In this document: positions 11,548 to 58,369 of the stretch, piece after piece | Numbering within the stretch: the stretch's first letter is position 1 | How the letters are laid out: each line of letters starts with the position of its first letter | NCBI RefSeq assembly: GCF_001645765.1 | Contig: NZ_LWUJ01000011.1 | Location: forward strand, 1 to 64,000 | Source: Candidatus Mycoplasma haematobovis | GTDB taxonomy: Bacteria; Bacillota_I; Bacilli_A; Mycoplasmatales; Mycoplasmoidaceae | DNA: 64,000 bases | Reading direction: 5' to 3' | Position numbers and translations under genes: made by a program | Notes under the pieces: model-generated | The model's input: only the letters and a program-made list of their open reading frames with translations | The model's database searches: none | What the model was told of the DNA's origin: nothing

Positions 11548-11898
11548 ATGCATTCAAAAATTAAGAAAATAGCAGATGAAATGCTTCTTAAAGCTTTCAA
11601 AGCCACTACAGGAAGTAGTGATTTTGCCCCCGTTTCAGAGATTTTTTTAAAGCATTGATTTGAGTCGGAAGTATGAATAACTTATGACGAAGAAATCTTA
11701 AATATGGAACTGAAATCAATAAATTCACTTGAGAATAGTCATATTGAAAATACTATTCCTGAAAGTAAATTTAGATTATTTCAAAAAGAAGAAGGGGATA
11801 CTTGAAAATCTTTAATTACTGGTATTGGAGGTTATAAAATCGATGGAAAGAAGCATCTATTAATTTGTCTTTCTTTCAAAGATTATCAAATTTTTTAA
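11548..11898 (+). CDS. Hypothetical protein, first of two tandem paralogues
   Basis: The protein is 116 residues, soluble and mixed-charge, with several TGA codons read as Trp. It ends shortly after a conserved block that includes TWKSLITGIGGYKID. I do not recognise the family. Together with the next gene it forms a tandem pair: 33 bases apart, same strand, similar layout (helical N-terminal half, then EVW-(I/L)-TY, then a conserved C-terminal block). It sits in the accessory segment next to the PurB-like pseudogene. Confidence 0.7.
11798..11844 (+). repeat. 47-bp perfect repeat, copy 1
   Basis: Identical base for base to 12194-12240, 396 bases away. It encodes TWKSLITGIGGYKID in both paralogues, although the rest of the two genes has diverged widely at DNA and protein level. 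Confidence 0.9.
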
Positions 11899-11931: not shown

Positions 11932-12300
11932 ATGAAAAATAAGTTAAGGCTAACAGCAAAAGACAAAGAAGAAATTAAGAAGTTTTTGATTGAAAATATT
12001 ACTTTAGGAAATCGTGAATTTTCATTAATAATTGATTCTTTTCTTGACCATTCAACGTGCTATGAAGTATGACTTACTTACAGTAAAGATTTATTAAATA
12101 TGGAGCTTGAATCTCTTAAAGCAAGAAATATATCTTTAAGTAAGGCTATTCCTACTACTAGATTTAGAATGTACATTAGAGAAGTAGAGAGTAATACTTG
12201 AAAATCTTTAATTACTGGTATTGGAGGTTATAAAATCGATACTAAAAAATACTCTTTAGTTAAAGTTGATTTATTTGGTTTAAAGGGCAAAAAAAATTAA
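11932..12300 (+). CDS. Hypothetical protein, second of two tandem paralogues
   Basis: The protein is 122 residues and related to the gene just before it. Shared parts are (Y/S)EVW(L/I)TY...LNMEL(E/K)S, IP(T/E)(T/S)(R/K)FR and the identical block TWKSLITGIGGYKID. TGA codons are Trp. The TAA stop at 12298-12300 overlaps the TAA of the convergent purB-hpt gene in a TTAA palindrome. Function unknown; a lineage-specific paralogous family is likely. Confidence 0.7.
12194..12240 (+). repeat. 47-bp perfect repeat, copy 2
   Basis: Second copy of the 47-base block found at 11798-11844. It lies at the same position relative to the reading frame of the second paralogue. Confidence 0.9.
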
Positions 12301-14066
12301 TTAGGTTCTCCTACAAATTCCATATTCCTATAACTATTTTCTATATCCATGCCATAACCAGCCCAATTCCCACTAGGCAATTCAAGTCCATAAAAATCCA
12401 CTGACACTTTCTGCTTAGTAAAGAGTGTGCATACTTTAATATCTATTGGCCTCATTGGTTCTAAAGTTTGTTTAAAGAAACCAATAGTGGTTCCTGTATC
12501 TACTAACTCATCCACTATCAATATTCTTGCACTACCCACATTCCCCACTTTGCGTCTAATATCCCCGTTAGCATCTCTCATACTAAGTAATTTCAAATTG
12601 ATCTTAAATTTAAGCATACCTAAGAGCTTTTCTAAGAATAAATAAGCCCCTTCCATAATACCCACCAATATTACTTCTTCCCCTGATCTATATTCCCCAT
12701 TCAATAAAGAAGCTAATCTTGCTATTGCTAACTCCACTTCTTCTTTTTCAAAATAAATCTTTTTGAAATTATCTTTCATTCCTTCCTCTTCAAAAATTCT
12801 AGAATACAAAATATCTACATATTTAACTCTAGACTCTAAATCAAATATATTTCTTAAATCTTCAGCATTAATATATTTAGGCAATTCAGAAGTCCTAAAC
12901 ATATCTTCAAAAGAAGCATTATGTTCTTTACAAACTACTAATATTTCCTCTAATCAATGTTCAATTTGAACTCTACTAAAATTTGTCTTTTCTAAGAGTA
13001 CTTGTTGTGCTGTTTCTACAAATACTAACTCTTTTGCTTTCTCTAAATTCCTTCTTATATTTTCTTCATTAAAGACTATATTTCTCAAAGTAGAAGTACT
13101 TTTCTTAAGTATTAAAGCCATAATAGTAATAGCATCAAGAAATACTACTCTATCTACAGAAGAATGTGAAATATCTCTCTCTAGTCAAATAGAGGTATTT
13201 AAAGAAGCGCTATATGCATAACCTTTAAGTAATCTAGCTAAACCACATATATTCTCTAATGTTATTGGATTTCTCTTGTGCGGCATACATGAAGAACCAA
13301 TTTGTCGAGTACCAAAAGTCTCAGAAAGCTCGCCTATCTCTGTTCTTGTTAATTGTCTTAAATCTAAAGCTAAATCACTAATTAAAGTACCTATTGAAGC
13401 AAGAATAGAGAAATAAGAACTATATCTTTCTCTTGAAAGAACTTGAGTTGAAGCTTTAGAACTAAATAAATTTAATTTCTGTGAAATATATTCTTGACAA
13501 TCTGGAGTTACATGTGCACAAGTGCCAACAGCCCCACTAATAGAAGCACATTCTATATAGGGACGTATATCACTAAAGCTTTCAAGTAATTCATTTAAGT
13601 GTGCATAGCAAGTGGCAAATTTGTATCCTAAAGAAATAATTTGTTTTCCATCATAGGAAATAAGTGCTTTATGTTTAAGTGCTAAATGCTTTAATACTTT
13701 TCTTAATTCAAAAATTAATGAGAATAAATAATCATTAGCTTCTTTAAGTAATAAAGAATTAGCAGTATCTACAATATCAGAAGAAGTAATTCCATAATGT
13801 ATTCACTTTTTCTCTATCAATAATGTTTTCTTACATACAGCATTAACAAACGCTACTACATCATGTTTAGTTTTTTGTTCTTCTTCATATACCTCATCCT
13901 TATTAATAGATAATGAATTGCAGAGTATCTCTGCATTCTTCTTAGAAAACTTATCTTTTTCAGCTAAGAATTTAAGTAAGTACTTCTCTATCTCTAATCA
14001 TTTTTTAAATTTATTGTCATCCGAAAATATTTGACTTATTCTCTCGGACGAATATCTAGGAATCAA
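12297..14066 (-). CDS. PurB-Hpt fusion: adenylosuccinate lyase joined to hypoxanthine phosphoribosyltransferase
   Basis: One open frame of 589 residues, checked codon by codon across the junction near 12902 (only TGA, read as Trp, interrupts). Residues 1 to about 400 are adenylosuccinate lyase: start IPRYSSERIS, KHDVVAFV, HYGITSSDIVDTA, and the lyase signature IGSSCMPHKRNP. Residues about 400-589 are an Hpt-type phosphoribosyltransferase: LVGIMEGAYLFLEKLL, the PRPP loop ILIVDELVDTGTT and the closing AGYGMDIENSYRN. The fusion would couple IMP formation with its conversion to AMP. The start is TTG (14064-14066), directly after the TAG of the upstream gene and in the same frame. The stop shares TTAA with the convergent gene. 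Confidence 0.88.
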
Positions 14067-15590
14067 CTAAACAGGTTTGTATTTTTCTTTAATAGCACCT
14101 ACACCATCAATATTTCTATATTTGTAAGCTGTATCAAGTCCATAACCAATAACTCATTTAGGAGGAAGTGCAAATCCTAAGAAATCTGCTTCAAGATCTG
14201 TTCTCTCTGGATGAGGTTTAGAGAACAATATACATGTTTTGCAATCTTTGATATTAACTTTTTTAGACATTTGTGATTTGTAAACTTTAATAGTCATACC
14301 TTTGTCTAAGATATCATCAAAAATAATTACTCTTCTGTTATCAAATTTATCTTTATCAAACTCAATATCTATAGGACAAGAATCATCACCAACTAAGTTA
14401 ACGCCATATAGAGATACTTTAGCAGTAACTACTATTAATGGAAAGTGTAAATGAGTAAGCATTTGGCCTAATAAAGGCAAAACACCTTCAGTAAAACCTA
14501 CACAAACTACTGGTTCTTTTTCATTTCTGTATTCATTATTAAGTTGTTGAGCTAATCTTAAAATTCCATTTCTTATCTCTGCGCCCTCATAGTAAATTTC
14601 TTCCATAAATTCTTTCTTCTCTTCAGCTTCAAAAATTCTTACAAAAGCTTCATCGTTTTCGCTTTGGTATTTAGCATCAACATTATCAAGGGATTTAGCT
14701 TTAATTTCCATTCCTAATAATAAGTAATCTAAGTTGTAAAAAAGAGTATGAAAATCACCAGCTAATACCCTATATGAATCTAAATCAATATCAAAAGCAA
14801 TTACTTTGCAACCAGCACATCTAAGTCTTGATACAGCAGAAAAAATATCTCTCAAATGTGAATCTCCCATTTCATCAAATTCAACTTCGCCAGAAACTTT
14901 CAGATCTTTAATAAATGTAGCAATTGTCTCTCCCAATTTTGCAAAACTACCTAATACTTCCATAAATCAATTATTTTCTGAAGAATAAGGAGAGAAACAG
15001 AATAAATCTAACTCTTTAGCCATAAAATCTTGTAATTTAATCGGATAAGAGATAAGACCCGAAAGTGAATTAGTTGGATTAATATATTCAATATATTTCC
15101 TACTTACCTGTAGACGTTCCAGTTGTTCTCTAAAGCTATTAAAGAAAAGAGCAAATTGATAACCTAAAGAAGTAATACTTTTTGCTCCTGTTATTGGACA
15201 AATAACCATTCTGTAAATTGATTTATTATCTAAAGCTAACTTCTTAAGAGTATCTGCATAAAGATAGAAATCAGAAAGCATACTATCATTAACACACTTA
15301 ATAATTAATTTACTTGCAGTATCAGTAATACTTGCTTCAGGCAATTTATTAATAATTTCTTTTTCTTCTGGAGTAAGAGTAGACTCTAATGCCTCCGTAA
15401 AATCAATAAAATCCATGTACTCACATGGACAACCTTCTGCATTTCCTTCATTAATTTTCCTGATTAATTCTTTTCCTACCTCTTCTTTAATAGAATTTGT
15501 ATTAACTAAATACTTGATATGGGTAACTACAACAGTAGCTCACTCTTCGTAAGTAGTATGGTTATTGAAAGCACAAACTGTTTCACACAT
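14067..15590 (-). CDS. Second PurB-Hpt fusion paralogue with degenerate PurB domain
   Basis: The protein is 507 residues from ATG 15588-15590. The C-terminal 190 residues are an Hpt-type domain (VGFTEGVLPLLGQML, RRVIIFDDILDKGMT, VIGYGLDTAYKYRN). The N-terminal 310 residues align in order with the PurB domain of the next gene: ITDTASKLIIK with IVDTANSLLLK, ITSLGYQFALFFNSFREQLERL with IISLGYKFATCYAHLNELLESF, and LQDFMAKELDLF with CQEYISQKLNLF. The lyase signature SSxMPxKxNP is missing. The PRPP loop reads DKGMT instead of DTGxT, so even Hpt activity is uncertain. It looks like a tandem duplicate whose lyase part became non-catalytic, perhaps structural or regulatory. Confidence 0.8.
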
Positions 15591-56359: not shown

Positions 56360-57138
56360 GAGATATTCTTTATTCCTCCATTACGTAATAAAAATAAGAA
56401 CTTTTCTTCGGCTTTTGTAATATCTCAAATATCATTTTTACTTTTAAAGTTATACCTCCTAGCTAAAGACTCAATAAAGTCTATATAATTTTCATTATTT
56501 AAACCTTTTAGGGATTCAGGGTAGTGTTTTTTTAAGTACAAAAAAGAGCTTTCAAGTATATTAGAGTATTCTTTAATTTGAGCAGGTACAGCATTAATTA
56601 CTATTAGTTTTTGGAGTAATTCTTCTGAAATGTTTTTGTAGAAAAAGATTCCTGGAGAGTCGTAAAGTCATAAGTTATCACCTAAGTAATATTTAGTTAT
56701 TTTTTTAGTAACTCCTGGTGTATTTTCGCAAGGAGAGATCTTCTTATTCTTTAAGAGATTTATTAAAGTGGATTTACCTGTATTAGGAAGTCCTACTACT
56801 AATATTTGGAAATGGGGCTGCAAATAGCCCTCCGCTCTAAACTTAGCTCTTTCAGGGGCTAATATGTCCTTTATTAATTTAAGTATCTTATTCCTATTGC
56901 TCTGAAATCTAAAATCAAAAGCATTTTTAGAAGGCTTAACATCAGCTAAATCTACTTTACTAAAAAGGCTTAGAATTTTAGTATTAAAAAATATCTTAGA
57001 AATCTCATCATTTAAATTACTTACTTTTGTAGATCTAGCATCAATAACATTAATAATTAAATCTACTTCTTTTTTGAAAACATTTAAGTTAAGTAAGGCG
57101 TTTTTTATATGAGAAGGAAGCTCTAACTTAATTCCCAT
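56347..57138 (-). CDS. RbgA/YlqF-type circularly permuted ribosome-assembly GTPase
   Basis: The protein is 263 residues. The GTPase motifs run in permuted order: FSKVDLAD (G4, about residue 68), then VVGLPNTGKSTLIN (G1), TPGVTKKI (G2) and YDSPG (G3). VIDARS precedes G4 as usual. The WFPGHM start of RbgA is not evident, so the exact subfamily (RbgA or YqeH/RsgA-like) is not certain. The ATG overlaps the purA stop by 11 bases. Confidence 0.87.
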
Positions 57139-58354
57139 CTATACGAATAAATGTTTCGTCTCTTTCTTTGCCATAAGAAATAATGGTAATTTTTACTCCT
57201 ATGAAAAATTCAATAAATTCTAAGTAATCTCTCAATTCTTTAGAAAAATCCAAATAAGACTTAATTTTAGAATAATCATCTTTTCAACCCTTGAATGCTT
57301 TGTATTCAGGATTAGAATCTTTATCATAATTAATACATACTTTAACTTCATCTAAGCCATTAAGTACATCTACTAGAGTTAAAGCTAATTCTGTTATTCC
57401 TGAAATATTTACTGAATATTTAAGTGCTACTAAATCTAATCAACCTATTCTTCTAGGTCTTCCAGTTACAGAACCAAATTCATTAGCTGTTTGTCTTATG
57501 TAATTAGTTAATCTTTCATCGGTAAGTTCTGTGATAAAGCTACCATTACCTACTCTACTACTATAGGCTTTAACTACTCCTATTAATCGTTTAAAGTATG
57601 AAAAAGGCATAGAGGTACCTGAAGATGCAGAAGCAATAATATTTGAAGAAGTAACAAAGGGATAAGTACCTAAGTCTAAATCTAGCATTATTCCTTGACT
57701 ACCCTCTAGAAGAAATTTCTTACCGTTCTTGAATTCTGAATGGAAGAAAGAATAAGAGTCTATTAAATAAGATTTAAGTCTTTGACCATATTCATAGTAC
57801 TTATTAGTTTCAAATTCTAAATCAAAAGTAGGTTCTCCATAATGTTCAAAAAGCACATTGTAAATATCTAAATTAAGTTTTATTTTCTCTCTTAAAGAGT
57901 CTAAATCTAATAAATCTTTTGCTCTTAATCCTAATCTTAAAGCTTTATTAGAATAAGTAGGTCCAATGCCTTTTAGGGTGGTGCCTACTGCACTAGCTCC
58001 CTTTATTTTTTCAAGTAATCTATCAAAAGCTATATTTCAAGAACAAATAATATGAATATTCTTAGAGATGTAAAGATTGTCATTAACTAAATCTCCTAAT
58101 TCATCTATTTCAGAGAATAGTTGTTCTGGATTTATTACTACTCCGTGTGATATTACTGCTTTAGTTCTTAGTATTCCGCAGGGTACTATTTGGAAAGTAT
58201 ATTTCTTACCATTTATGTATACTGAATGGCCTGCATTATCGCCTCCCTGATATCTTACTACGTAGTCGTAATTATGAGTTATAAAGTCTACTATTTTAGC
58301 CTTACCTTCGTCGCCAAAAAAGGTACCAACTACAACAGCTACCTCTCCTCTCAT
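57128..58354 (-). CDS. purA: Adenylosuccinate synthetase
   Basis: The protein is 408 residues, slightly short. It uses IMP, aspartate and GTP to form adenylosuccinate. The P-loop reads FFGDEGKAKIVDF (usually WGDEGKGK), the catalytic His is in GGDNAGHSVYI, and LLEGSQGIMLDLDLGTYPFVTSSN and GSVTGRPRRIGW are diagnostic. ATG 58352-58354 is preferred to a TTG one codon before. TGA(Trp) codons occur at 58037 and 57440. It supplies the substrate of the PurB domain at 12297-14066. Confidence 0.94.
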
Positions 58355-58369
58355 CAAAGATATGTTGAA

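Follow-up and report, generated by a model that had tools for sequence, protein, structure and literature searches.

Fused PurB-HPRT paralogs of Group 1 hemoplasmas and the possible division of one adenylosuccinate lyase between two of them

The window analyzed here, a stretch of 64,000 nucleotides from 'Candidatus Mycoplasma haematobovis' (haemobos in the following), carries two adjacent genes, here named B and C, that each join a domain related to adenylosuccinate lyase (ADSL, PurB) to one related to hypoxanthine phosphoribosyltransferase (HPRT), and raises the question of which protein can perform the lyase step. The features referred to below are as follows, with PurB residue labels given in Bacillus subtilis PurB numbering.

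12297..14066, minus strand: gene B, a PurB-HPRT fusion of 589 aa, with a TTG start directly 3' of the TAG of C
12795..14066, minus strand: PurB (adenylosuccinate lyase) domain of B, aa 1-424, matching TIGR00928, with all catalytic motifs but the H141 hairpin
13863..13865, minus strand: H68 equivalent of B in a TKHD motif, retained
13797..13799, minus strand: H89 equivalent of B in an HYG motif, retained
13632..13661, minus strand: remnant of the H141 hairpin of B, where ISYDGKQIIS replaces the canonical GRTHGxHAEPT and the general-acid histidine is lost
13266..13295, minus strand: mobile signature loop of B, SSCMPHKRNP, with the S262/S263/K268 equivalents retained
12309..12752, minus strand: HPRT-like domain of B, aa 439-586, with the PRPP loop DELVDTGTT present and the flexible loop II and base-stacking residue gone
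14067..15590, minus strand: gene C, a fusion of a degenerate PurB part and HPRT, 507 aa, with an ATG start
14637..15554, minus strand: degenerate PurB-like part of C, without H68, H89, H141 or the signature loop
14082..14612, minus strand: HPRT domain of C, aa 327-503, with loop II (SLYG), DDILDKGMT and the Trp/Asp/Arg of the base and PPi site present
57128..58357, minus strand: PurA (adenylosuccinate synthetase; PF00709, E 1.3e-134), which makes the substrate of ADSL
Contig C11, about 192822-194388, outside the window and 179 kb from B on the same contig: gene D, a further fused PurB-HPRT paralog

Tandem fusions in the window and in related genomes

Read with genetic code 4 (TGA as Trp), the frames of B and C contain no internal TAA or TAG and abut in one shared reading frame, with one TAG as the sole separator. 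At 14064-14069 this TAG is followed at once by the TTG of B, and a read-through product would be a four-domain chain of about 1097 aa; such read-through is possible but not needed, and the gene order differs in M. haemofelis (A-B-C). The TTG start of B is kept in all three Group 1 species (haemobos, M. haemocanis and M. haemofelis). Close by on the plus strand, 11548-11898 and 11932-12300 hold adjacent short paralogous frames with a near-identical stretch of about 40 bases (gaaaatctttaattactggtattggaggttataaaatcgat), which by sequence look like a family of hemoplasma paralogs between which exchange took place recently.

Profile searches matched both domains in both genes, in agreement with a sequence-only reading of the window that had described two adjacent same-strand fusion frames and had proposed such a search. 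The PurB part of B scored 330.2 bits against TIGR00928 (aa 2-424) in the protein profile search and thus passes the curated cut-off of 326.2, and in the genome search it scored 318 bits in haemobos and 297-299 bits in M. haemocanis and M. haemofelis, slightly below that cut-off. Its HPRT part matched TIGR01203 with 75.6 bits (aa 439-586) and PF00156 above the cut-off. The PurB part of C gave only weak matches (TIGR00928 17.8 bits, aa 64-168; ADSL structure 2x75, E 1.2e-7) and is therefore regarded as decayed, while its HPRT part reached 95.9 bits with TIGR01203 (aa 336-500), below the cut-off of 150, and 44.3 bits with PF00156. The sequence-only reading had likewise recognized a tandem duplication with decay of one PurB domain; its assumption that the other copy was intact does not hold, as B lacks the catalytic H141 hairpin. 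It had also placed the domain junction of B near 12902 with no TAA or TAG across it. The frame is indeed open there, and the junction itself, also open, maps to about aa 425-438 (window about 12794-12753).

The same fusions were found when other hemoplasma genomes were searched under code 4, and their presence in independent genomes excludes the sequencing artefact that the earlier reading wished to see checked. M. haemocanis Illinois and M. haemofelis Langford 1 each encode a run of three PurB-HPRT fusions, A-B-C, and both domains lie within one open frame conserved across species. Gene A of these two species (L032 4032-5474 and L033 4297-5730, respectively) lacks the active site of PurB as well as that of HPRT, and yet has a dN/dS of 0.10, a value of purifying selection. 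Group 2 hemoplasmas (M. parvum, M. suis, M. wenyonii, M. ovis and others) encode one fusion, X, in an open frame of 633-735 aa, and some of them also have a separate C gene. X has the same domain order as B and D and is homologous to them, but differs in holding a complete PurB active site in a single PurB-HPRT chain, and a D gene is absent from these genomes. The same likeness and difference apply to a non-hemoplasma genome of another genus (G027), where purA is directly followed by a purB-hpt fusion (L046 6188-8047) with complete PurB motifs.

In several relatives (e.g. genomes G011 and G109) purA, purB and hpt are separate neighbors in that order. Because these genes stand in a row in relatives, the natural explanation from gene order is that the fusion arose by joining of neighbors, and this ancestral arrangement is a simpler reason for the fusion than channelling of IMP. 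Within the deep tree, the points at which A, C and D join are long-branch and unsure.

Partition of lyase residues between B and D

The PurB domain of B keeps H68, H89, S262/S263, K268, E275, N276, R4, Y5, S306 and R310, and lacks the general-acid H141 together with its GRTHGxHAEPT hairpin. The loss is shared by all three Group 1 genomes, with YDGKQIIS in haemobos and YDRKEKYITS in M. haemocanis and M. haemofelis, and in the AlphaFold model of B the hairpin strands are shortened to residues 136-138 and 143-145. H68, H89, H141, Q212, S262, S263, K268 and E275 are by comparison all kept in 27 of 27 other PurB frames of the family, a control set found with the hairpin-less B as query so that H141 was not preselected; H141 is therefore not commonly dispensable. 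The PurB set from a wider search was picked by an RTHG pattern, and H141 is conserved there by construction. Judged by its sequence, B alone is unlikely to be a complete ADSL. In the region of the shortened hairpin, B and C look alike (GYxFALFFNS...; window 14067-15590 compared with 12297-14066), which hints at gene conversion between the tandem copies as the route by which B may have lost H141.

Gene D presents the reverse picture. It has lost R4/Y5, H68, H89, Q212 and the entire mobile loop SSxMPHKxNP, and keeps QxGRTHGxHAEPTSFGH, including the H141 hairpin. The D frames of M. haemocanis and M. haemofelis are 547 aa long, and D lies in a syntenic context that the three Group 1 genomes share. 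D is the least conserved gene among its neighbors between haemobos and M. haemofelis (33% identity compared with 54-81%); the orthologs are 34% identical overall and identical at 15 of 17 hairpin positions, a higher share than in any other window along the protein. The AlphaFold model of D (mean pLDDT 76.9, PurB part mostly 85-95) places hairpin strands at residues 130-136 and 139-144, and PurB was among its best matches in the PDB (2x75, Z 32.1, rmsd 4.2, 393 residues aligned). The model has the ADSL fold, and its beta hairpin is in place; the alignments supplied to AlphaFold included PurB homologs and partly imposed this fold.

The D-type gene appears confined to Group 1: it was missing from all 92 remaining family genomes, in which matches were only ordinary PurB, HPRT or X, and outside the group none was seen among the best 80 contig loci, which, apart from M. 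haemocanis itself, were all ordinary PurBs. B and D are the sole Lyase_1 matches in the three Group 1 genomes, two of which are complete, and no further Lyase_1 or purB gene was detected in them with PF00206 and TIGR00928 at E up to 10, the weak match of C aside. Comparison of M. haemocanis with M. haemofelis gave dN/dS values of 0.10 for A, 0.04 for B, 0.14 for C and 0.08 for D, with dS near 1. By these values (0.04 to 0.14), all four coding sequences are under purifying selection and none looks like a pseudogene. Among the paralogs B shows the highest conservation, with 93% identity between the two species.

The residues were then considered by the subunit that donates them. H68 was placed with the residues of the first subunit, and K268 and E275 of the mobile loop with those of the third, in line with mutant work on B. 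subtilis PurB. The other roles come from S. aureus PurB, where three of the four subunits build each active site: D69, S94, Q212, S306 and R310 come from one subunit, H141, described as the catalytic acid, is donated by the subunit that faces it over the largest interface, and a third subunit contributes R4, Y5 and N276 (PMC2917274). Sorted in this manner, B lacks the H141 set, which D has, and B has both other donor sets, which D lacks, so that the catalytic residues are complete in B and D taken together. Of the sites conserved across 93% or more of 37 references, D retained 12 that B had lost, and only 3 were missing from both chains (Fisher p=0.0004). A circular-shift control reached the observed complementarity in 1 of 68 shifts, and other conservation thresholds gave p values of 0.0003 to 0.0014 with 2-3 shifts reaching the observed count; with 1 to 3 of 47 to 74 shifts attaining that count, the control is of modest strength. 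D furthermore keeps G350, S354, Q355 and R368 at the start of domain III, all four of which B has lost, and from the topology this segment may pack against the hairpin of its own chain. As two of the three species are close relatives, the pattern counts as no more than two independent cases of maintenance and a single case of origin.

HPRT halves and the purine route

The HPRT domain of C in haemobos contains the acidic pair of the PRPP site and the catalytic Asp, loop II, the base-site aromatic residue and the equivalents of Asp193 and Arg199, these two and Thr138 being given in human numbering. It deviates from the expected residues at the Thr138 position, which is Lys in haemobos, and the catalytic Asp is replaced by Glu in M. 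haemocanis and M. haemofelis. C thereby shares the loop II, PRPP-loop and base-site residues of known HPRTs (TIGR01203, PF00156), and differs from them in its fusion to a PurB half that is dead. In haemobos, the HPRT half of B retains the PRPP loop and lacks loop II; in M. haemocanis and M. haemofelis it lacks the PRPP acidic pair and is degenerate. The HPRT halves of D and A are degenerate throughout. No stand-alone hpt was recognized in Group 1 with PF00156 at E up to 10. The other Pribosyltran matches comprise two genes per Group 1 genome, one of them sized like PRPP synthetase, and a search with the HPRT half of B recovers neither of the two. Since the other copies are degenerate or, as in haemobos B, lack loop II, and a stand-alone HPRT was not recognized, C is the most likely source of HPRT activity. 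The accessible text of the M. haemofelis genome report describes two HPRT copies and purines made from hypoxanthine, and the fusion is not remarked on there (PMC3196708).

Group 2 differs in how the HPRT function is carried. M. parvum and M. suis (L036 6135-8189 and L037 5470-7533) have a sole fusion with a degenerate PRPP loop (EGVVESKTT/EGVVESKST), and a second copy was not found in them with B as query. X of M. wenyonii and M. ovis (L040-L045) has lost its HPRT end, and a separate C keeps HPRT. Labor is thus divided there as it is in Group 1, except that the PurB of these species is complete.

PurA was found in every hemoplasma genome searched, including the three Group 1 species; adenylosuccinate therefore has to be cleaved and the ADSL step should be in use. 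Adenosine kinase is listed as another route to AMP in the published account of M. haemofelis metabolism (PMC3196708), and by this route ADSL may not be strictly essential.

A candidate two-gene lyase and its alternatives

As B lacks the catalytic acid and D lacks nearly everything else, and the two are complete together, we propose an obligate hetero-oligomer of B and D as the Group 1 ADSL, with C as HPRT supplier, and consider this reading probable. Of the Group 1 duplicates, B would donate the substrate-binding face (H68, H89, S94, Q212, S306, R310) as well as the third-subunit residues R4, Y5, S262/S263, K268, E275 and N276, and D would donate the hairpin with the general-acid histidine H141 and nothing else. 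In a tetramer of two B and two D chains, B and D would pair across the large dimer interface and B with B through the contact from which the mobile loop is supplied; by this geometry, two of the four sites of B2D2 would be complete and two empty. C would convert hypoxanthine to IMP, PurA would form adenylosuccinate, and B with D would release AMP.

The main rival is that B alone is an active ADSL with a substitute general acid, e.g. Tyr-Asp or Lys in what remains of the hairpin, and that D is a scaffold or regulator. B passes the TIGR00928 cut-off and is the best conserved paralog (93%, dN/dS 0.04), and Y-D-x-K is common to both versions of the shortened hairpin. However, the H141 position itself holds no common acid (Gln or a gap in haemobos, Glu or a gap in M. 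haemocanis and M. haemofelis), H141 is the catalytic acid according to PMC2917274, and the selective retention of the H141 hairpin by D amid near-total loss would be left unexplained, so we regard this possibility as unlikely. A loss of ADSL activity in Group 1, with A, B, C and D decaying or otherwise employed, would fit the long branches and the heavy divergence of A, C and D, and adenosine kinase offers an alternative AMP source (PMC3196708). Yet all four genes are open with dN/dS of 0.04 to 0.14, purA is kept in three of three species although PurA without ADSL would accumulate adenylosuccinate, and B retains its remaining catalytic residues without exception; we consider such a loss very unlikely.

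The sequence-only reading had instead suggested that B and the adjacent C form a working hetero-oligomer and that the fusion could channel IMP toward AMP. Its idea of a hetero-oligomer is probably right in kind. The pairing it named is favored by the abutting of the two genes in the same frame, their likely co-translation, and the better HPRT in C combined with the better PurB in B. But C has neither H141 nor any PurB catalytic motif and cannot complete B, and the gene upstream of B in M. haemofelis and M. haemocanis is A, which is dead in both halves. C was therefore rejected as the complementing partner, for which D is the candidate, and may join the assembly as HPRT carrier. Channelling found no specific support, since HPRT makes IMP and PurA, a separate protein outside the fusion, must act ahead of PurB, and since B of M. 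haemofelis and M. haemocanis has a degenerate HPRT half. Taken as a whole, the B-C reading appears most improbable. The 'Ca. Mycoplasma haemobos' INIFAP01 genome is a draft of about 48x coverage (PMC4939789), and an assembly error or misalignment behind the hairpin loss in B and the loop loss in D could be suspected, but the same losses occur with the frame kept in the two independent finished genomes of M. haemocanis and M. haemofelis, which refutes this explanation and leaves it a negligible probability.

The proposed B-D enzyme would share fold, motifs and a three-subunit active site with homotetrameric PurB (TIGR00928; B. subtilis, S. aureus 2x75, T. maritima 1c3c), and would differ in having the motifs of one site split over two genes and in chains with an HPRT-derived C-terminal domain. 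The nearest precedent in principle is Trypanosoma brucei deoxyhypusine synthase DHSc/DHSp, a heterotetramer of two paralogs (PMC3663545), where a homotetramer likewise became a 2:2 paralog heterotetramer with each subunit poor or dead alone. There, one subunit has impaired activity and its partner, catalytically dead, acts as activator (PMC3663545), whereas in the bacterial B-D pair, a different enzyme, the catalytic residues themselves are predicted to be split and both chains to be dead alone. Intragenic complementation in argininosuccinate lyase, delta-crystallin and ADSL is similar in that differently broken subunits restore some sites in a mixed tetramer, but involves clinical alleles or engineered mutants of one gene, while B and D would be two fixed and non-adjacent genes. 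No published report of the fusion or the split was found in the literature searched, which held few subscription journals.

We lean, with less assurance than for the B-D pairing itself, toward a universal homotetrameric metabolic enzyme that duplication and the complementary loss of catalytic loops would have permanently divided into two individually dead paralogs, active only as a mixed tetramer, within a purine-salvage complex of three or four lyase-HPRT chains. For annotation, B would pass as an ordinary PurB and D as a lyase-like protein, and neither should work alone. If true, the proposal predicts that each chain is dead alone, that a tetramer has two sites and that one histidine of D is essential. 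It would constitute a natural, fixed case of the intersubunit complementation elsewhere studied through mutant alleles of this superfamily, a rare bacterial enzyme with a single active site spread over two degenerate genes, and an instance of constructive neutral evolution or of subfunctionalization at the level of residues.
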